Positions 8,828 to 38,403 are shown, counted from the stretch's first letter. The stretch: DNA of 64,000 nt from Candidatus Kryptonium thompsonii (GCA_001442925.1 LDXX01000008.1:1-64000), one strand, 5' to 3'. Made by a program: numbers and translations. The notes: a model not told the origin generated them from the sequence alone.

Positions 8828-8856
8828 TTGACTTTTCAACTTTTTATCTTTATATT
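8828..8856 (+). promoter_or_regulatory. Strong candidate promoter of the TetR-MMPL cassette
   Basis: TTGACT (8828-8833), exactly 17 bases, TATATT (8851-8856): close to sigma-70 consensus in both hexamers. It is about 40 bases before the tetR-family start, and an inverted repeat begins at the next base. Confidence 0.65.
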
Positions 8857-8889
8857 ATTTTTGACTAAAAGAACAAATTGGTCAAAAAT
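8857..8889. promoter_or_regulatory. Operator candidate for the TetR-family regulator
   Basis: ATTTTTGACTAA (8857-8868) and TTGGTCAAAAAT (8878-8889) are reverse complements with one mismatch, spaced by 9 bases; the outer 9 bp are perfect. The dyad covers the expected transcription start, immediately after the -10 at 8851-8856, and ends 5 bases before the regulator gene. This is a classic place for autorepression. Confidence 0.65.
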
Positions 8890-8894
8890 TCAAT

Positions 8895-9473
8895 ATGATC
8901 GACATTGAAAAAACGAGAAATGAAATCGTTGAAATAGCGAAAGATATCTTCGCAAGGTTTGGATTCAAAAAAACGACCGTGGAAGAAATTGCCAAAGCAG
9001 CAAGAAAAACCAAAAGCTCACTTTATTATTACTTCAAAAATAAAGAAGAGATATTTCAAGCAGTCATCGAACAGGAAGCGGAAGTTCTTCGAGAGCGAAT
9101 TAAAAAGGCGATATCCCAAGAAAACACTCCACAAGATAAACTTAGAGCTTACATAATAACAAGAATGAAAGCGCTCAAACAACTTGCAAATTTCTACAGC
9201 GCCATCAAAGATGAATATCTTGAAAATTATAAATTTATCGAGAAATTCAGAGGTAAATACGATGAAGAAGAGAAAAACACGATAAGCCAAATTTTAAAGG
9301 AGGGCATCGCCAAGGGAATTTTTAAAGTAAAAGATGTTGAAATTACAACTACTGCAATTTTAATCGCCCTCAAAGGATTTGAAGCATGGATTTTTCGGGG
9401 CAACACGAGGTGGACGGAAAAAGACATCGACAATCTCCTTGAAATTTTGTTTTACGGGATAACGAGAAAATAA
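8895..9473 (+). CDS. TetR/AcrR-family transcriptional regulator
   Basis: Cytosolic repressor of 192 residues. Residues about 8-55 form the TetR DNA-binding domain: AKDIFARFGFKKTTVEEIAK, then SSLYYYFKNKEEIFQAVI, the usual helix-turn-helix ending in YYYFKNKEE. The C-terminal part is the variable ligand-binding domain. It is the first gene of the cassette with the exporter and sits on top of the dyad at 8857-8889, so it very probably represses itself and the four genes downstream. The inducer is unknown; a lipid or fatty acyl compound would suit the operon. Confidence 0.93.
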   Translation: MIDIEKTRNEIVEIAKDIFARFGFKKTTVEEIAKAARKTKSSLYYYFKNKEEIFQAVIEQEAEVLRERIKKAISQENTPQDKLRAYIITRMKALKQLANFYSAIKDEYLENYKFIEKFRGKYDEEEKNTISQILKEGIAKGIFKVKDVEITTTAILIALKGFEAWIFRGNTRWTEKDIDNLLEILFYGITRK

Positions 9474-9486
9474 AATTAAATAAACG

Positions 9487-11763
9487 ATGAAAAAATATTC
9501 ACATTTCATCATAAAATACAGATGGATATTTATTTCTCTAACCTTTGCCTTAACTCTATTCTTTGCATATTCAATTAAGAAAATAAAAATCAACTCAGAC
9601 TTTACTTCCTATCTCCCTCAAACTGACGAAGCCGTTAAGCTCGCCCGATACATTGGGGACAAATACGGCGGGAATCTAACTGCCATAGTGGCAATTGAAT
9701 CTGCGGACATCTTTGATTATGAAGTGCTTAAAGATATCTACAACTTGACGGAAAAATTAAAATATGTTGAAGGTATCTCCTATGTCACCAGCTTAACAAA
9801 CACAATTGATATAAAGGGAACAGAAGAAGGAATTGAGATAGGGAAGCTAATCAACGAGATACCCGAAGATCCCCAAGAATTAAATAGAATAAAAAATTAT
9901 GTCCTCTCAAAAGATCTGTACAAAAATCTCATATCAAGCGATGCAAAAATCACGCTGATATTATGTAGGTTAAAAGAAGGTGTAGATAAAGAAAGTGTAG
10001 CAAGGGAAATCAAAAAAGTAGTTGAGGCAGAGAGAATCAAGGGAAAAGTTTACTACGGGGGGCTGCCATTTCAGATGATTGATATGAATAAATTGATAAT
10101 TGATGACTTGAAGATATTAACCCCAATGGTCGGGTTTGTAATGCTTGTGATTTTATTTTTGAGCTTTAGGAACCTAAAGGGTGTTATAATACCATTTCTC
10201 AGTGCGGGTTTCAGTATAATCTGGACGCTTGGGCTGATGGCAATCTTAAACATACCATTGACCATAATTTCAAATACAATACCTGTAATTTTAACAGCAA
10301 TTGGAACTGCTTATGGAATACACATCGTAAATAAATACAACGAAATTTTATTTATAACCGACCCCAGAGAAAGAGCCGAAATCACTCTTTCAGAAATTTC
10401 ACTACCAGTGTTCCTTGCTGGGATTACAACAATTGCAGGATTTCTATCGTTTATCTATGGCTCATACTTAACAATGATAAAGGAATTTGGAATTTTTACA
10501 AGCGTCGGTGTTCTATTTTCCCTCATTATATCACTTACATTGATACCCTCAATTTTATCCCTTTTAAAACAAGGTAAAAAAACAAACAAAGTTTCAAAGC
10601 CTCAGCTTGATAAAAAGCCAGCGGTAAAAATCACAAAGTTAATTTCAAAATTAAAATATCCGATTTTGCTTTTTTCGATTTTAATAGTTTTGGCATCTGC
10701 CATTGGAATTTTTAAAATTAACAGAGAAGTTAGCATACTTGAATATTTCAAGCCTGAGACAAATGTAAGGGCTACGGAAGAGATGTTAAAGCGAAATTTT
10801 GGGGGATCGTTGCCTTTGTATGTTTTAGTAAAGGGGGATGTGCAAGACCCGCAAGTTCTACAGGAAATTAAAAAGGTTGAGGATTTTCTGAAATCGCTTG
10901 AAGATGTTCATAACCCACAATCAATTGTTGATATAATTGAAGAGATGAATCATGTAATGGGTGAAGGTAGAAAGATACCTGAAACAAGAGAAAAAATTGC
11001 AAATCTAATTTTTCTGATAGAGGGCGAGGAAATTTTTAATCAACTTGTCTCGCCAGATAAAGATGAGGCGATAATTCAAGCGATGGTGACATATGCAAGC
11101 TCAAATAAAATTTCGGAACTCGTCAATAAAATTCAATCCTACTTTAATTCGGTTTCCGACAAGGGGAACAATGTAAAATTTGAACAAACGGGGATGCCCT
11201 TAATTTATAAACATCTCGACGATGCGATAATCAAAAGTCAAATTCAAAGTTTAATCTTCGCTCTAATCTTTGTCTTCTTAATAATGATATTCCAAACTGG
11301 CTCAATTTCAGGTGGGATTCTTGGGATAATTCCTGTTTCTCTAACAATTGCTGTTATTTATGGATTCATGGGCTATTACGGAATTCCACTTGACATCGCC
11401 ACTGTTTTAATTGCTGGGGTTTCTCTTGGAATGGGAATAGATTATTCAATTCATTTTATGAATAGGTTAAAGGTTGAGCTTGGACAAAGTTATTCTTTTG
11501 AAGAAGCAATAAGTAAGGTTATTGGCACAACGGGTGTTGCGATTCTAATAAACGCCTTGTCAGTTGCCCTTGGCTTTGCAGTGCTTATTTTTGCAAGCGT
11601 GATACCATTGCAAAGATTTGGGATCTTAATTTTACTTACGATGTTTCTATCCAGTGGGGCAACATTGATTTTATTGCCAGCGATAATTCTGACGACGAAA
11701 CCAAAGTTTTTGAAGAAGATGCTTTGTGAAACTGAGGTTGAAAAAGTTAAAACAAATGCATGA
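9487..11763 (+). CDS. MMPL/RND-superfamily lipid or hydrophobe exporter
   Basis: Inner-membrane transporter of 758 residues with the duplicated RND layout: an N-terminal helix, a periplasmic domain of about 170 residues, about six helices (residues 205-360, with GTAYGIHIVNKYNEI), a second helix and periplasmic domain, then a second helix block (580-745, with GVSLGMGIDYSIHFMNRL). The GxxxDY motif in the second block is the proton-relay region of MMPL/HpnN-type proteins. It lacks the long domains of drug-efflux AcrB, and no membrane-fusion protein is nearby. Downstream LolA-like and barrel genes suggest lipid or hydrophobic cargo moving to the outer membrane. Start 13 bases after the regulator gene. 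Confidence 0.88.
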   Translation: MKKYSHFIIKYRWIFISLTFALTLFFAYSIKKIKINSDFTSYLPQTDEAVKLARYIGDKYGGNLTAIVAIESADIFDYEVLKDIYNLTEKLKYVEGISYVTSLTNTIDIKGTEEGIEIGKLINEIPEDPQELNRIKNYVLSKDLYKNLISSDAKITLILCRLKEGVDKESVAREIKKVVEAERIKGKVYYGGLPFQMIDMNKLIIDDLKILTPMVGFVMLVILFLSFRNLKGVIIPFLSAGFSIIWTLGLMAILNIPLTIISNTIPVILTAIGTAYGIHIVNKYNEILFITDPRERAEITLSEISLPVFLAGITTIAGFLSFIYGSYLTMIKEFGIFTSVGVLFSLIISLTLIPSILSLLKQGKKTNKVSKPQLDKKPAVKITKLISKLKYPILLFSILIVLASAIGIFKINREVSILEYFKPETNVRATEEMLKRNFGGSLPLYVLVKGDVQDPQVLQEIKKVEDFLKSLEDVHNPQSIVDIIEEMNHVMGEGRKIPETREKIANLIFLIEGEEIFNQLVSPDKDEAIIQAMVTYASSNKISELVNKIQSYFNSVSDKGNNVKFEQTGMPLIYKHLDDAIIKSQIQSLIFALIFVFLIMIFQTGSISGGILGIIPVSLTIAVIYGFMGYYGIPLDIATVLIAGVSLGMGIDYSIHFMNRLKVELGQSYSFEEAISKVIGTTGVAILINALSVALGFAVLIFASVIPLQRFGILILLTMFLSSGATLILLPAIILTTKPKFLKKMLCETEVEKVKTNA

Positions 11764-11776
11764 AGGAGGAATAAAA

Positions 11777-12508
11777 ATGCGCTACTTAGCCCTTGCATTA
11801 TCATTAGTCTTCACAACAAATATCTTATTTGCACAGCTCACTGCTGTGGAAATTTTAAAAAAGGTTGACGATGTTTCATACGCCCCCAAAGATCAATTCT
11901 ACAAATCAAAGGTTATATTAATAGACAAGAACGGCAAAGAGATGCATCGGGAGGCACTTATGTATCAAAAAGGAACGAACAAGAGACTAGTAAAATTTAC
12001 GGAACCCGCAGATATAAAGGGGATTGGATTTTTATCCCTACCGGAAGATGTAAATTATGTCTATCTTCCAGCTTTCAAGAAAAGTAGACGCATAGCGTCG
12101 CACATCAAAAATCAAAATTTTGCAGGTACAGACTTTACCTATGAAGATATGGAAGCGTTAACTTATTCAGAGAAATGGGAACCAGAGCTTTTAAGAAAAG
12201 ATGAATTTCACTATGTTTTGAAACTAACACCAAGAAAAGGAAGGACAAGTGATTATTCAAAGCTTATCATGTATGCAAGAACAGATAATTTTTACCCTGA
12301 AAAAATCGAATACTATGATAAGGCTGGTAACCTATGCAAAATTTTAACCCGGAGAAGAATTGAAAAAGTTGGTAATTATTGGATAGCTATTGAAACCGAA
12401 ATGAAAGATCTCAGAAAAAACCATACAACTAAACTTATGCTCGAAGACATCAAATTTGACACAAATTTAAGCGATGACATTTTCACATTAAGAAATCTTG
12501 AGAGATAA
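11777..12508 (+). CDS. LolA-like outer-membrane lipoprotein-sorting family protein
   Basis: Periplasmic protein of 243 residues with a signal peptide (MRYLALALSLVFTTNILFAQ). The body, with VNYVYLPAFKKSRRIAS, FTYEDMEALT and a run of antiparallel-strand segments, matches the LolA_like domain found beside MMPL exporters. That fold is an open barrel that binds lipid acyl chains. ATG at 11777 follows AGGAGGAATAAA, so the longer frame from 11726 is rejected; the gene begins 13 bases after the exporter. I infer that it accepts cargo from the MMPL protein and carries it to the outer membrane. It is not the housekeeping LolA. Confidence 0.85.
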   Translation: MRYLALALSLVFTTNILFAQLTAVEILKKVDDVSYAPKDQFYKSKVILIDKNGKEMHREALMYQKGTNKRLVKFTEPADIKGIGFLSLPEDVNYVYLPAFKKSRRIASHIKNQNFAGTDFTYEDMEALTYSEKWEPELLRKDEFHYVLKLTPRKGRTSDYSKLIMYARTDNFYPEKIEYYDKAGNLCKILTRRRIEKVGNYWIAIETEMKDLRKNHTTKLMLEDIKFDTNLSDDIFTLRNLER

Positions 12509-12511
12509 AAA

Positions 12512-13315
12512 ATGAAACAAGCCATTTTATTATTTATCCTTTCACTCTTATGTTTTTTTAACAACTTAACAGCTGATGATTTTAAATTCAGCTCTGAGTA
12601 TCTTGAGTACGATGTTTACTGGAAATTTCTAAATCTCGGGAAGATAAGGGTATGGACAAAGGTTGAAGGTGATAGCATCTATTCAAGAATTCATGTTGAG
12701 TCAAACCCGTATATCTTTTTCGTAAATGTAAACTACACCTTTGAAAGCAAATTTCATAAGGAAAATCCTTTCAACAGCTACCTCAACGTTTATGAGACGA
12801 AAAATGGGCTTCCACTAAAAACAACCTTTTTAAGAAAAGAAAATGAAATAGTCGCAAAACAATTTGATATAAGAAATGGCACAGTTATTGGGCAGAAGTC
12901 AATTCCCTATCCGGATATATATTATCATGGGATAACTGCATTTTTTGTTGCGAGAAAATTGTGTGGTGCTGGGGTTGTGGTTTATCTTCCCCTGTTATTT
13001 GCCACAGAGGAAAAACTTGAGAGACCACCATTTATTATAAAGGTTGAAAAAGTAAGATTTGATTTTTTGGAACAGAAAGAAGATGTAAAAATTTCAGCAT
13101 TTGATTCAGAGGTTCAAACGATCAAATTTAATGGATACGCATCATTTGTAAGTAAGGAATTGGCTGGGATAACAGGTGAATTTAGTGGATGGCTTTCAGA
13201 CGACTGGGCAAGAGTTCCAATCAAAGCAACTTTTAACACTTTTCTCGGTATTGTTCGCCTTGAACTTTCAAAATGGGAAAAAGATAAATGGAAACCACCT
13301 TTAAAAACAAATTGA
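12512..13315 (+). CDS. DUF3108 family periplasmic protein
   Basis: Secreted protein of 267 residues with signal peptide MKQAILLFILSLLCFFNNLTA. It opens with EYLEYDVYWKFLNLGKIRV and ends with GWLSDDWARVPIKATF followed by FLGIVRLEL, which are the two ends of the DUF3108 fold, a LolA/VioE-like half barrel. It starts three bases after the LolA-like gene, so it is surely co-transcribed. Function unknown; a second periplasmic lipid-binding factor is the simplest reading. Confidence 0.8.
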   Translation: MKQAILLFILSLLCFFNNLTADDFKFSSEYLEYDVYWKFLNLGKIRVWTKVEGDSIYSRIHVESNPYIFFVNVNYTFESKFHKENPFNSYLNVYETKNGLPLKTTFLRKENEIVAKQFDIRNGTVIGQKSIPYPDIYYHGITAFFVARKLCGAGVVVYLPLLFATEEKLERPPFIIKVEKVRFDFLEQKEDVKISAFDSEVQTIKFNGYASFVSKELAGITGEFSGWLSDDWARVPIKATFNTFLGIVRLELSKWEKDKWKPPLKTN

Positions 13316-13328
13316 TGCCTGCAAAGGT

Positions 13329-14651
13329 ATGAAAGCGCTCAAAATTATAACTTTGATTTTTATTCAAAGCGCTCTTTTAATTTCTCAAAATCTTCAAATC
13401 GGCGGATACATTCAAGCGGACGACAGAGTGAAACTAAAAGACAAAACCATATCGTGGGAAGAATACCGACTTAACTTAACAGGGCAAGTTGAACTTGAAA
13501 ATGTAAAATTTTACTCTGAAATCTGGGTTAGAAATTTCGGCTCAAGTGATGTTAAAAAAATATCAGACCTTTTAGACAGAAATTATGTCGAACCAGTTGA
13601 CATTAAAATTCGTGAAGCGTATGTTGATGTGAAAGATTTTCTCATTGACAACCTTGATCTTAAGGTTGGAAGGCAAAGAATTGCGTGGGGAACTGCAGAT
13701 AAATTAAACCCAACAGATAACTTGAACCCAGATGACCTTGAAGATATATGGGATTACGGAAGACATCTTGGATCAAACGCAATTAAACTTTCATATTACA
13801 TTGGTGATTTCACCTTCACAAGTGTTTTTATTCCAACATTTACACCTGCTGTTTTGCCTCGTGGTGATTGGGTGAAAATCTTTACAGATGAATTTTTCCC
13901 GGGAGCAATTCAAACCCAGATTCAAACTCAAATTCAAAATCCTGATCCTTCACTTAAAGAAGCATCAAAGTTTGGTCTGAAAATATCAAAAAGAGATATC
14001 CTTGGGTTTGCCTTTTCTTTAAGTTATGTGTACGGAAGAGATGATATCCCAATACCATACAAAGTTTCTGGTAAGTTCAAGGACGGTAAGTTTGTCCCTG
14101 ATTCTGTGCTTTTATTCTTTCCAAAGATGAAAATTGTTGGTTTTGATCTCACTGGTGATATAAAAGGAATTGGCGTCTGGGGAGAAGCTGGAATATTCTA
14201 TCCCGAAGAAGTTATCCTTGAAACTGTAATTTCAAACATCCCAATTCAAAAGAGTGAAACAATCCTTAAAAAAGAAAATTACACAAGGTTTGTCCTTGGT
14301 TTCGATTATACATTTAAAAACGGAATTTATGCTAATGTTCAATATCTTCACGGCTTTCTTCATGAACGGGGGCGTGAAAATTTAAGAAATTACATTGTGT
14401 TTAATTTTGAACGAAAATTTATGAATGACAAAGTCAAATTTAACTTTCTTAGTGGTGGGTTCGAGTTCAAACGAGCGAAAGATGTAAAAAATAATTATGC
14501 ACTGATTTACAATCCGCAGATATCTTATAACCCAATCGATAACTTAGAATTCACCATTGGCGTAAGACTAATTGAAGGTAAGGGCAGGACAACTTTTGGT
14601 AGATTGAGCGATAGGGATGAGATTTATTTAAAGGTCAAATATAGCTTTTAA
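13329..14651 (+). CDS. Outer-membrane beta-barrel protein (DUF1302-like)
   Basis: Predicted outer-membrane barrel of 440 residues with a signal peptide ending near LLISQ and alternating amphipathic strands ending in the aromatic YLKVKYSF. The segment REAYVDVKDFLIDNLDLKVG, then RQRIAWGTADKLNPTDNLNP, is typical of DUF1302 porin-like proteins, which accompany RND exporters in hydrocarbon- and sterol-handling bacteria. A short IQTQ repeat lies in one loop (near residue 200). It is the last gene of the cassette and would be the outer-membrane exit or docking site. Confidence 0.82.
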   Translation: MKALKIITLIFIQSALLISQNLQIGGYIQADDRVKLKDKTISWEEYRLNLTGQVELENVKFYSEIWVRNFGSSDVKKISDLLDRNYVEPVDIKIREAYVDVKDFLIDNLDLKVGRQRIAWGTADKLNPTDNLNPDDLEDIWDYGRHLGSNAIKLSYYIGDFTFTSVFIPTFTPAVLPRGDWVKIFTDEFFPGAIQTQIQTQIQNPDPSLKEASKFGLKISKRDILGFAFSLSYVYGRDDIPIPYKVSGKFKDGKFVPDSVLLFFPKMKIVGFDLTGDIKGIGVWGEAGIFYPEEVILETVISNIPIQKSETILKKENYTRFVLGFDYTFKNGIYANVQYLHGFLHERGRENLRNYIVFNFERKFMNDKVKFNFLSGGFEFKRAKDVKNNYALIYNPQISYNPIDNLEFTIGVRLIEGKGRTTFGRLSDRDEIYLKVKYSF

Positions 14652-14658
14652 TAAATAA

Positions 14659-14678
14659 GGCACGCCTTTCGGCGTGCC
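14659..14678. terminator. Bidirectional terminator between convergent operons
   Basis: GGCACGCC (14659-14666) pairs perfectly with GGCGTGCC (14671-14678) around TTTC. Followed by CTTTT on the plus strand and by an AT-rich run on the minus strand, it can end both the export cassette and the S9 peptidase operon. Confidence 0.85.
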
Positions 14679-14687
14679 CTTTTGAAA

Positions 14688-22083: not shown

Positions 22084-23343
22084 TTATCCCTTAATTTTTG
22101 TAAATCCAATTATTCTATCAAATCCACCAAACTGTGGATCTTTGTAGTAAACGACGATGTAATAAGAATTACTTGTTCGCCAATCGTTCCCTTCAAGCTC
22201 AAGCCAATCAATCACAATAACCTCATCCTTTCCGTAATCATAATAACCGACAACATACTGATAATCATAAATTCCACGCTTAAGCCATTTCTTAACATAA
22301 TAACAATTTCTCACAGGATCATATTTCAAAATATCCTCAGGTTTAGGCTTCCAATTATTAAAAGCACCAACAATAAAAATATCACCCTTGATTTTTTGCT
22401 CCGTTTCCCTATCAACCTCAAGTTGAAAGTTCACCTCAAGATACTCCGAGTACATCCCCTCCTCAACTATCCTACAACCACCATCCATATCTGGTTCACC
22501 CTGCCAAAATTTTCTAACTTTATCAACTCCGCCAATCGGCGTCACAGGATAACCGTTCGGATAAATTTTTTCGCTTCTCAAATCAATTTGCCTGTATTCA
22601 TTTAAAGGATAAATATTCCAGATCTTAAAAATCCTTGAACTCGATGGAAAACCACTTACATAACTATATTTCTTTCTCTCAGCGAAATCAATCCGATATG
22701 GATAAAAAATTTTCCAATTTTCATAAATATCGACAGTTGTAACATAATACCAGCTCAGAGAATCAGGGATCTCGACTTCAACATCAATTTCATTTACATA
22801 ATTTCGCAGATCCGCTTTGTCTCCAAGCAAAACCTTTCTTAAACTCGCATTTACATCTGTTAATTTGTCAACCAATATAAATCTCCCGCTCGCGTAGACA
22901 ATTGTATCCGCTTTTACATTGTAAATCTCAAAGACATAATTTCCAGAATACGGAAACCTGACGACACCATTGGGATCGGGAAAAATGTTCTTAAAGTGAA
23001 AATTATAACCCTTTATCCCTTTCTCAGCTGTCGTATAATTTAGAGAAAGGGATTTGCTATGGAAAAAATCTTGAACAAATATATTTTCGGTTTTCCTCCA
23101 ATTTCTATCACAGTGGTAAAAACGAATTCCTATATCTGGCAAAGTTGTGCTTTTCACATCAAACTCAATCACAATATAATCATTCGCTGTGTTTGGCTCA
23201 CCATTCCAAAGTGTATCATATCGAACTATTATAGGCGGATAAATTTCGCTTTCGTAACTATAAACCCTCAAACCCTTAATTTCAATGTGATCTTGCGCAA
23301 ATAAAAAATTGGCAAAAAATAAAAGCAAATAATACTTAAGCAT
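22084..23343 (-). CDS. Type IX secretion system plug-like protein (DUF5103)
   Basis: Secreted protein of about 419 residues with signal peptide MLKYYLLLFFANFLFAQ. The first domain contains FYHCDRNWRKTENIF and GYNFHFKNIFPDPNGVVRFPYSG, typical of DUF5103, now named T9SS plug. The last 120 residues form a CBM48-like beta sandwich (GDIFIVGAFNNWKP, GIYDYQYVVGYYD), which is usual for the family. In Flavobacteriia the plug closes the SprA pore. No other T9SS gene is in this window, so a link to secretion rests on family only. The first ATG (23352) is possible; the one at 23343 has GGGA before it. Confidence 0.85.
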   Translation of the reverse strand: MLKYYLLLFFANFLFAQDHIEIKGLRVYSYESEIYPPIIVRYDTLWNGEPNTANDYIVIEFDVKSTTLPDIGIRFYHCDRNWRKTENIFVQDFFHSKSLSLNYTTAEKGIKGYNFHFKNIFPDPNGVVRFPYSGNYVFEIYNVKADTIVYASGRFILVDKLTDVNASLRKVLLGDKADLRNYVNEIDVEVEIPDSLSWYYVTTVDIYENWKIFYPYRIDFAERKKYSYVSGFPSSSRIFKIWNIYPLNEYRQIDLRSEKIYPNGYPVTPIGGVDKVRKFWQGEPDMDGGCRIVEEGMYSEYLEVNFQLEVDRETEQKIKGDIFIVGAFNNWKPKPEDILKYDPVRNCYYVKKWLKRGIYDYQYVVGYYDYGKDEVIVIDWLELEGNDWRTSNSYYIVVYYKDPQFGGFDRIIGFTKIKG

Positions 23344-23360
23344 ATTTCCCATTCCATACT

Positions 23361-36355: not shown

Positions 36356-37084
36356 ATGTCCCCAAACCTAATACCCAGAAAAGTTGAGATTTTATACCTT
36401 AATTCAATAGAAAAAATCCTACGATTGGTCTCGCACTTAAACTTAAATCCAAATTTTTTAACAACACTTGCACTTATCATCAGTATACTTGCGGGATATT
36501 TTTTCGCAGTAGGCAAATTCATAATTGCTGGCATTTTAACTCTGTTAAGCGGAATATTTGATACCATTGATGGGAAAATCGCAAGATTAACTAATAGAGT
36601 GACCAAATTCGGAGCGCTTTATGATTCAACGCTTGATAGATATGCCGAGGTAATTATATTTTTCGGGATCGGAGTTTACTTGATAAAATACAACTTTTAC
36701 ATCACATCTGTTGCTGCTGTTTTTGCAATTGGTGGTTCAATGATGGTAAGCTATATAAGGGCAAGAGCAGAAGGGCTTGGTTTTGAGTGTAATGTTGGAC
36801 TTATGAGAAGAGCTGAGAGAATAGTTTTGCTTGGATTTGGTTCAGTCTTTTACTTTCTCCATGATTACTTTGTAAGATTTTTCGATTATGTATTTGATAA
36901 ATTTAATTTTGATTTTCCTGCTTATCCACCCATGCCCCTTTCAATCGCAATTTACATAATGGCTGTTTTAACAAATATAACTGCATATCAACGACTTCAT
37001 TATGTATGGAAAAAATCAAAAGAGATTGAACTTTTCGAAAATCAAACTGAACTCATAACACAAAATAAGGAGGTGGGAAAATGA
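36356..37084 (+). CDS. CDP-alcohol phosphatidyltransferase, probable phosphatidylinositol-phosphate synthase
   Basis: Membrane enzyme of 242 residues with about six helices. The full catalytic signature is present at about residues 70-98: DTIDGKIARLTNRVTKFG followed by ALYDSTLDRYAE, i.e. DG(x2)AR(x8)G(x3)D(x3)D, preceded by the first Asp. Such enzymes displace CMP from CDP-diacylglycerol with an alcohol. The next gene, overlapping by four bases, makes inositol-1-phosphate, so I infer that this one joins inositol phosphate to CDP-diacylglycerol, as in the inositol-lipid pathway known from Bacteroides. Alternatives: phosphatidylglycerol-phosphate synthase, or a dialkyl inositol phosphate synthase as in hyperthermophiles. 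Confidence 0.85.
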   Translation: MSPNLIPRKVEILYLNSIEKILRLVSHLNLNPNFLTTLALIISILAGYFFAVGKFIIAGILTLLSGIFDTIDGKIARLTNRVTKFGALYDSTLDRYAEVIIFFGIGVYLIKYNFYITSVAAVFAIGGSMMVSYIRARAEGLGFECNVGLMRRAERIVLLGFGSVFYFLHDYFVRFFDYVFDKFNFDFPAYPPMPLSIAIYIMAVLTNITAYQRLHYVWKKSKEIELFENQTELITQNKEVGK

Positions 37085-38403
37085 TAAAGACAAAATCAGG
37101 TGCGGAAATAAAAGAACCTGTTGGAAAACTTGGGGTACTTTTACCTGGGCTTGGTGCCGTTGCAACTACTTTTATCGCAGGAACATTGCTCGTTCGCAAA
37201 GGATTGGCTTTACCGATTGGCTCACTTACGCAAATGGGAACGATTAGACTTGGTAAAAGAACCGAGAGAAGATTCCCCAAAATTAAGGAATTTGTCCCAC
37301 TCGCTGACTTAAATGATCTTGTATTTGGTGGATGGGACATTTTCGAAGATAATGCGTATGAATCTGCGTTAAAAGCTGGCGTTTTAAGAAAAGAACATCT
37401 CGACCTTGTAAAAGACGAACTTGAACAAATTAGACCGATGAAAGCCGTCTTCGACAAAAAATATGTTAGAAAGCTCGATGGACCGAATGTAAAAAAAGCA
37501 AAGGATAAATTTGAACTTGCTCAAATGCTTAGAGAAGATATTAGAGAGTTTAAGCAGAAAAATAATTGTGATCGCCTCGTTATGATTTGGTGTGGCAGTA
37601 CGGAAGTTTATATGGAACCTACCGAAGCACATCAAACCCTTGAAAAGTTCGAAGAAGCAATGAAGAGAAATGATGATGCAATAGCACCAAGCATGATCTA
37701 TGCCTATGCTGCGATCGCTGAGGGTGTCCCATACGCAAACGGCGCACCTAATTTATCAGTTGATATACCAGCACTTATCCAATTTGCCAAAGAGATGAAA
37801 GTTCCAATTGCTGGAAAAGACTTCAAAACTGGACAAACACTTGTCAAAACAGTGATAGCTCCAATGCTCAAAGCAAGGATGCTTGGACTCACAGGCTGGT
37901 TCTCTGTTAATATACTTGGCAACCGCGATGGCGAAGTTTTAGACGACCCAGAATCTTTCAAGACAAAAGAAGTTAGTAAACTCGGTGTTCTTGAATATAT
38001 TTTACAACCAGAACTCTACCCAGATTTATACGGGAACTACTATCACAAGGTGCGAATAAACTTTTATCCACCGCGTGGAGATGAAAAAGAGGCATGGGAC
38101 AACATAGACATATTTGGATGGCTTGGCTACCCGATGCAAATCAAAATAAATTTCCTCTGTCGGGATTCAATCCTTGCTGCCCCAATAGTTCTCGATCTCG
38201 CACTATTTCTTGACCTTGCCCAGAGAAGCGGAATGAGTGGAATCCAAGAGTGGCTATCTTTTTACTTCAAAAGTCCAATGCACGCTCCAACTGTTTATCC
38301 AGAACATGATTTGTTTATACAACTTATGAAGCTTAAAAATCGATTACGCCATTTAATGGGAGAGGAACTTATAACACATCTCGGACTTGAATACTACGAT
38401 TAA
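37081..38403 (+). CDS. ino1: Myo-inositol-1-phosphate synthase
   Basis: NAD-dependent conversion of glucose-6-phosphate to inositol-1-phosphate. Length 440. Evidence: GKLGVLLPGLGAVATTFIAG at the NAD site, WCGSTEVYMEPTEAHQTLE, PNLSVDIPALIQFA, AGKDFKTGQTLVKTVIAP (the catalytic lysine region), and SVNILGNRDGEVLDDPESF. Preceded by AAGGAGGTGGGAAA and overlapping the phosphatidyltransferase stop (ATGA), hence strictly co-expressed. The product would supply inositol lipids or a compatible solute. Confidence 0.93.
   Translation: MIKTKSGAEIKEPVGKLGVLLPGLGAVATTFIAGTLLVRKGLALPIGSLTQMGTIRLGKRTERRFPKIKEFVPLADLNDLVFGGWDIFEDNAYESALKAGVLRKEHLDLVKDELEQIRPMKAVFDKKYVRKLDGPNVKKAKDKFELAQMLREDIREFKQKNNCDRLVMIWCGSTEVYMEPTEAHQTLEKFEEAMKRNDDAIAPSMIYAYAAIAEGVPYANGAPNLSVDIPALIQFAKEMKVPIAGKDFKTGQTLVKTVIAPMLKARMLGLTGWFSVNILGNRDGEVLDDPESFKTKEVSKLGVLEYILQPELYPDLYGNYYHKVRINFYPPRGDEKEAWDNIDIFGWLGYPMQIKINFLCRDSILAAPIVLDLALFLDLAQRSGMSGIQEWLSFYFKSPMHAPTVYPEHDLFIQLMKLKNRLRHLMGEELITHLGLEYYD

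Follow-up and report, generated by a model that had tools for sequence, protein, structure and literature searches.

A TetR-controlled pump, carrier and barrel cassette in Candidatus Kryptonium thompsonii, a candidate envelope export line for membrane lipid

In a window of 64,000 nucleotides from Candidatus Kryptonium thompsonii (LDXX01000008.1, positions 1-64000), which is the whole stretch of DNA analysed here, a run of five co-directional genes raises the question of what a regulator, an inner-membrane pump, two presumably periplasmic proteins and an outer-membrane barrel might move across the cell envelope, and in which direction. The bacterium is a heat-lover, and Candidatus Kryptonia is known from geothermal springs (PMC4737851). 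The locus comprises the following features:

8828-8856, plus strand: sigma-70-like promoter, TTGACT-17-TATATT
8860-8886, plus strand: putative TetR operator TTTGACT-N13-GGTCAAA, an imperfect palindrome just 5' of the ATG at 8895
8895-9473, plus strand: TetR-family regulator, probable autorepressor with the operator at its own start codon (PF00440, 9.5e-15)
9487-11763, plus strand: MMPL/HAE3-like RND inner-membrane transporter of 758 aa (PF03176, 1.6e-50)
11777-12508, plus strand: LolA_like periplasmic carrier with a signal peptide and solved LolA-fold homologues (PF17131, 1.6e-53)
12512-13315, plus strand: DUF3108 protein with a signal-peptide-like N-terminus, a genus-specific addition (PF11306, 1.1e-7)
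13329-14651, plus strand: DUF1302-like outer-membrane β-barrel with a signal peptide and a C-terminal Phe (PF06980, 7.5e-8)
14657-14680, no strand assigned: GC-rich hairpin separating two convergent genes, probably a (bidirectional) terminator

The five-gene unit and its parts

The preliminary description had placed five genes in one direction, in this order and spacing, and the open reading frames between 8895 and 14651 bear it out, with intergenic gaps of 13, 13, 3 and 13 nt and all five families above the Pfam gathering cut-offs. GGAGG precedes the start codon of the LolA_like gene at 11777; a GTG listed as its start, at 11726, lies further upstream. The -35 region of the promoter, TTGACTT, is shared by all seven genomes of the genus, the -10 region being less conserved. 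At the 3' end, the terminator-like call falls on the minus strand only, the plus strand displaying just four T after the hairpin; comparable hairpins lie 3' of the cassette in four of the five other genomes of the genus whose 3' ends can be read. The view of the five genes as a self-contained, self-regulated unit is supported.

The assignment of the parts as a regulator, an inner-membrane RND pump, a periplasmic LolA-fold protein and an outer-membrane barrel also stands, resting on the families, on solved homologues and on a confident barrel model, and no membrane-fusion-protein family is matched by any of the five genes in Pfam, in agreement with the earlier claim that such a protein is lacking. 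The TetR_N match of the regulator scores 54.6 against a gathering cut-off of 24, and the MMPL match of the pump, in two stretches, 172.4 against 20.5. The best-scoring model for the pump is the NCBIfam HAE3 model TIGR00921 (8e-96), with a score below its cut-off (321.7 versus 351.9), and the protein is therefore called HAE3-like; the HpnN models score far below their cut-offs (133.4 versus 751.9 and 72.6 versus 1100). At the profile level, the pump matches the solved MmpL4, MmpL5, HpnN and MmpL3. Three residues are invariant in 37 pump homologues, including (i) D652 and H656, in the stretch GMGIDYSIHF, and (ii) H279, in the equivalent first-half stretch GTAYGIHI; the first half of the window's pump has no Asp at the position corresponding to D652. 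By analogy with RND transporters, the pump would be coupled to protons.

The LolA_like protein matches PF17131 with 181.6 against 30, barely passes the DUF1329 model as well (23.8 versus 23.1), and is related to the solved LolA-fold proteins 9tp6, 3bk5, 4z48 and 3buu, a homology from which a hydrophobic cavity may be expected. The DUF1302 match of the barrel (32.3 versus 23.2) covers only about 41 residues (91-131), and the sequence ends in VKYSF. Its AF2 model (pLDDT 90, pTM 0.84) belongs to the 18-strand porin class, with MOMP, Occ/OprD, LamB and AlgE as the nearest folds at Z 20-22; the model indicates a barrel and not a cargo. As a separate observation, the first domain of a Type 9 secretion plug protein (PF17116) is encoded in the window at 22084-23352 on the minus strand.

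Spread of the core and origin of the DUF3108 gene

In all seven genus genomes the order TetR-MMPL-LolA_like-DUF3108-DUF1302 is preserved, with 64-93% protein identity, the cassette of genome G005 ending inside DUF3108 at a contig end; LolA_like is the most conserved among the four proteins aligned. The cassette flanks display at least three contexts within the genus, and an order kept in every genome despite changing flanks argues that the unit is not an accident of one genome.

Beyond the genus, a scan of genomes with the LolA_like profile returned 80 loci, with 78 LolA_like genes counted, from Aminicenantes, Cloacimonadota, WOR-3, Stahlbacteria, Spirochaetota, Bacteroidota, Balneolota, KSB1, Omnitrophota, Bacillota MAGs, Desulfobacterota and others. 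An MMPL gene lies near 68 of the 78 LolA_like genes and a barrel gene directly after 62. The conservation of neighbours, on which the preliminary description had staked its reading, applies to the four-gene core, MMPL, LolA_like and barrel being found together at 61 of the 78 loci, and not to DUF3108, which is not conserved in the cassette outside the genus. By sequence, TetR, an MMPL/HAE3-type RND pump, a PF17131 LolA_like protein and a DUF1302-like barrel form a widespread cassette. At L088, from the cultivable Fodinibius roseus DSM 21986, TetR, MMPL and LolA_like are present and no barrel appears before the edge of the locus. Two further observations concern these loci, numbered here with the prefix L: a gene for a ThiF-like (E1-type) protein is a recurrent neighbour of the cassette at L106, L109, L116, L120 and L124, and the MMPL genes of L053, L054, L060, L068, L082, L083, L088-L090, L093 and L094 encode proteins of about 970-1010 aa versus about 765 aa, with 200 extra residues.

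The DUF3108 match of the fourth protein scores 32.3 against a gathering cut-off of 26 (PF11306), and no other Pfam family is reported in it. Outside the genus, no DUF3108 gene is found within the cassette at the 78 LolA_like loci or adjacent to it among 60 relatives, and the phage records give no DUF3108 match. The DUF3108 profile has no credible match in the PDB and no relative by sequence there; profile-profile comparison with LolA_like (hhalign) gives a probability of 0.5%, and the AF2 model is poor (pLDDT 43, from an input of three sequences only). The lipid binding that the preliminary description gave to DUF3108 is at most a candidate property. In the DUF3108 tree the cassette copy is sister, with support of 99, to a genus paralogue adjoining an M1 peptidase gene; the placement of this paralogue in a second RND operon was considered and ruled out, the 1027-aa neighbour being the M1 peptidase. 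In the MMPL tree (FastTree support), the genus stands beside a mixed-phylum clade of 28 rows and the pumps of the class relatives L147-L149 fall in another part of the tree, with Bacteroidota; row L048 is the HAE1-type pump of that locus, chosen by length, and its long branch was disregarded. The sister relation to a resident paralogue, taken with the grouping of the pump among mixed phyla, points to a cassette received by transfer and a gene recruited to it: most likely, the four-gene cassette was horizontally acquired and then gained a copy of the resident DUF3108 gene before the genus diversified.

Upstream of the TetR gene, the genus genomes show no relationship until some 60-70 bases short of the start, and within this segment TTGACTT and the palindrome TTTYGACY-N13-RGTCRAAA are kept in all seven. 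The putative operator is unique in its own genome within 3 mismatches, a regulon search thus yielding no further copies as clues to the cargo. Across phyla the family consensus is TTCGACC-N13-GGTCGAA. With the half-sites TTCGACC and GGTCGAA and a free spacing of 9-17, the best match falls at spacing 13 for 12 of 25 TetR genes of other phyla versus 2.8 expected (p ~5e-6, relatedness uncorrected), and at least 10 of 14 positions match at spacing 13 upstream of 11 of the 25 TetR genes versus 13 of 706 control genes from these loci (p ~1e-11, relatedness uncorrected). Loci with a putative operator include L061, L062 and L063. From this enrichment across phyla, regulator and operator appear to travel together with the cassette.

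Described relatives and the nature of the cargo

An uncharacterised status for the whole system is not supported, since four described systems are close in design, including (i) AmeABCD from Castellaniella defragrans (PMC6394551), (ii) PP_0765/0766/2018/2019 from Pseudomonas putida (PMC10866462), (iii) ApeLMN of aryl polyene clusters (PMC8253772), and (iv) TOL_3187/3188 from Thalassolituus oleivorans (PMC6304351). With relatives of the design described, the principle of the four-gene core is already known. The nearest, AmeABCD, combines an HAE3-type RND pump, a DUF1329 protein of the LolA superfamily and a DUF1302 barrel in one conserved cassette, a core that is present here; it has DUF1329 where the Kryptonia cassette has PF17131, and its second periplasmic protein is AmeC (COG4447), absent here, where the Kryptonia cassette has DUF3108. 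AmeABCD is linked to monoterpene metabolism, with no lipid-biosynthesis context reported for it (PMC6394551). The P. putida proteins PP_0765 (DUF1302), PP_0766 (DUF1329) and PP_2018/PP_2019 correspond in class to the barrel, the LolA-superfamily protein, a periplasmic protein and the RND pump, and are linked via mutant phenotypes and predicted contacts, but the set is split between two loci, is needed for growth on Tween 20 and has no DUF3108 (PMC10866462).

ApeLMN joins a LolA-like protein to an RND pump and has been suggested to deliver an acyl lipid to the outer membrane, with the LolB-like DUF3261 and not a barrel as partner, inside an aryl polyene cluster (PMC8253772); none of the five Kryptonia genes matches DUF3261, and the nearest neighbours of the cassette are not polyene genes. 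TOL_3187/TOL_3188 display MMPL and LolA-like domains with a porin adjoining, but in T. oleivorans pump and LolA-like domain are fused and induced on a long-chain alkane (PMC6304351). The TetR-ABC-ABC-MMPL-LolA operons of Porphyromonas gingivalis and Prevotella intermedia share TetR, MMPL and an outer-membrane lipoprotein-sorting protein; they differ in carrying ABC ATPase genes and responding to iron, and a barrel is not reported there (PMC10434189). The hopanoid exporter HpnN (HAE3) belongs to the same broad RND family as the Kryptonia pump and functions with no dedicated partner in the periplasm or the outer membrane (PMC6394551).

Compared to these systems, the only unusual gene is the DUF3108 addition, which by sequence is confined to this genus and is a new detail, as is the predicted cross-phylum TetR operator; no description of the five-part form with DUF3108 was found in the literature searched, most subscription journals lying outside the search.

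Lipid genes inside homologous operons suggest an acyl or sphingolipid-type cargo. These genes, some of which were assigned via similarity clustering to a Pfam-scanned representative, comprise (i) KAS III (L050, L051, L052, L053, L054, L067, L092, L094), (ii) GNAT acyltransferase (L050, L059, L092), (iii) patatin (L056, L058, L067, L093), (iv) GT2 (L048, L052, L053, L092), (v) PlsC (L061), and (vi) LPG_synthase_C. In addition, a serine-palmitoyltransferase-like (SPT-like) gene lies directly downstream of the cassette at L057, L060 and L067, and a more distant relative beside it at L085 and L087; the SPT-like proteins score 545-553 bits, below the cut-off of 640. In a sample of 149 genomes from one other phylum, an SPT-like gene is present in all eight genomes with a close-type cassette versus 29 of 141 others (p ~8e-6, relatedness uncorrected, and these eight may be close kin, which would inflate the signal), and SPT is found in only 1 of 16 genomes of the same sample with divergent LolA_like genes. 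Acylated lipids are the most probable class of cargo, and a sphingolipid/ceramide-type lipid is the leading specific candidate.

The Kryptonia cassette itself contains no lipid-synthesis genes. On contig C5 of the same genome (L169:7914-10290) an SPT-like gene adjoins a GNAT gene whose product is 48% identical to that of L059 and homologous to the GNATs inside the cassettes L059, L092 and L050. SPT is nearly universal in the class, being present in 58 of 61 relatives irrespective of the cassette; the pair therefore adds little, and the SPT gene of the genome was dropped as specific evidence for the cargo. KAS III is present in a single copy, consistent with a housekeeping FabH. Elsewhere in the window (36356-38403), a CDP-alcohol phosphatidyltransferase gene adjoins one for myo-inositol-1-phosphate synthase, a probable inositol-lipid pair; from this pair and the SPT-like gene of the genome, inositol sphingolipids are conceivable.

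Direction of transport and alternative readings

We consider that the locus has about an even chance of being a lineage-specific, five-gene form of an export line that moves membrane lipid through the envelope, driven by protons and autoregulated by its TetR. In this reading TetR would occupy its operator, which lies between promoter and start codon, until a lipid-type signal frees it; the HAE3/MMPL pump would then take lipid out of the inner membrane to the periplasmic side, the LolA_like protein would ferry it over the periplasm, and the DUF1302 barrel would be the recipient at the outer membrane. DUF3108, presumably derived from a resident gene and added to the acquired cassette, may serve as an auxiliary component in the periplasm. 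The cargo, the direction and the hand-over between parts are read indirectly, export being preferred because of the known direction of RND pumps and the biosynthetic neighbours; by analogy, the functional precedents AmeABCD and ApeLMN support it (PMC6394551, PMC8253772). Against export of a lipid, the nearest modelled folds of the barrel are ordinary porins and AlgE, none of them a known lipid channel.

The cassette might instead expel toxic hydrophobic compounds of the solvent, terpene or drug type, TetR sensing them and the pump and its partners removing them, as has been proposed for AmeABCD. A TetR regulator with a single local operator, as found here, is typical of efflux pumps. AmeABCD, whose pump, LolA-superfamily protein and DUF1302 barrel are of the classes found here, adds to this reading, its deletion lowering monoterpene tolerance and raising Nile Red accumulation (PMC6394551). 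Yet lipid-synthesis genes are repeatedly embedded in homologous operons, which is unexpected for a xenobiotic pump, and no degradation genes lie beside the Kryptonia cassette; efflux of this kind is unlikely, though a serious contender.

Transport might also run inward, the barrel and LolA_like importing hydrophobic nutrients such as alkanes, fatty esters or lipids, with the RND pump aiding uptake or clearing the inner membrane. PP_0765/0766 and PP_2018/2019 are required for growth on Tween 20 (PMC10866462), the MMPL-LolA fusion and neighbouring porin of T. oleivorans are induced on n-C28 alkane (PMC6304351), and the modelled barrel resembles uptake porins; these related genes elsewhere would fit uptake too and to that extent tell against export. 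However, MMPL/HAE pumps of known direction, HpnN and MmpL, export (PMC8277102, PMC6394551), and the neighbours in homologous operons are mostly biosynthetic, with patatin and an esterase-like gene as exceptions, leaving import a rather improbable reading.

Lipoprotein sorting, with the RND pump replacing LolCDE and LolA_like carrying lipoproteins or a subset of them, is suggested by the LolA fold and by an operon of the same genome that joins a Lol-like motor to the same kinds of partner, but is very improbable given that the cassette protein belongs to PF17131 with no reported PF03548 match, that lipid-synthesis genes neighbour the homologous operons, and that a housekeeping LolA (PF03548) is encoded elsewhere in the genome, a finding that also leaves unsupported the earlier suggestion that the cassette replaces the housekeeping Lol system. 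In Pfam, the cassette displays no hallmark of that system, having neither a PF03548 match nor ABC genes.

The operon in question (L146:6675-11701, contig C4:139674-144700) comprises a LolA_like gene, two MacB/FtsX permeases, an ABC ATPase and a divergent DUF1302-profile barrel, and the same ABC-type order, judged by gene sizes and by LolA and barrel profiles, is found in the class relatives L152, L154 and L155. By sequence, LolA_like and barrel resemble a module able to team up with an RND motor in one operon and an ABC motor in another, so that one genome would drive the same pairing by two motors.

Returning to lipid export, a wider form of the proposal, in which a portable TetR-operator-controlled line is dedicated to sphingolipid/ceramide-type lipids in many outer-membrane phyla and DUF3108 is a periplasmic component added by this genus, is doubtful on the present evidence; if true, it would provide an outer-membrane route for bacterial sphingolipids. 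Little is known of how lipids reach the outer membrane in bacteria that lack the textbook machinery and have unusual lipids, sphingolipids for example, and a cassette common to many uncultured phyla, with its own putative operator and recurring lipid-gene neighbours, constitutes a testable candidate route.
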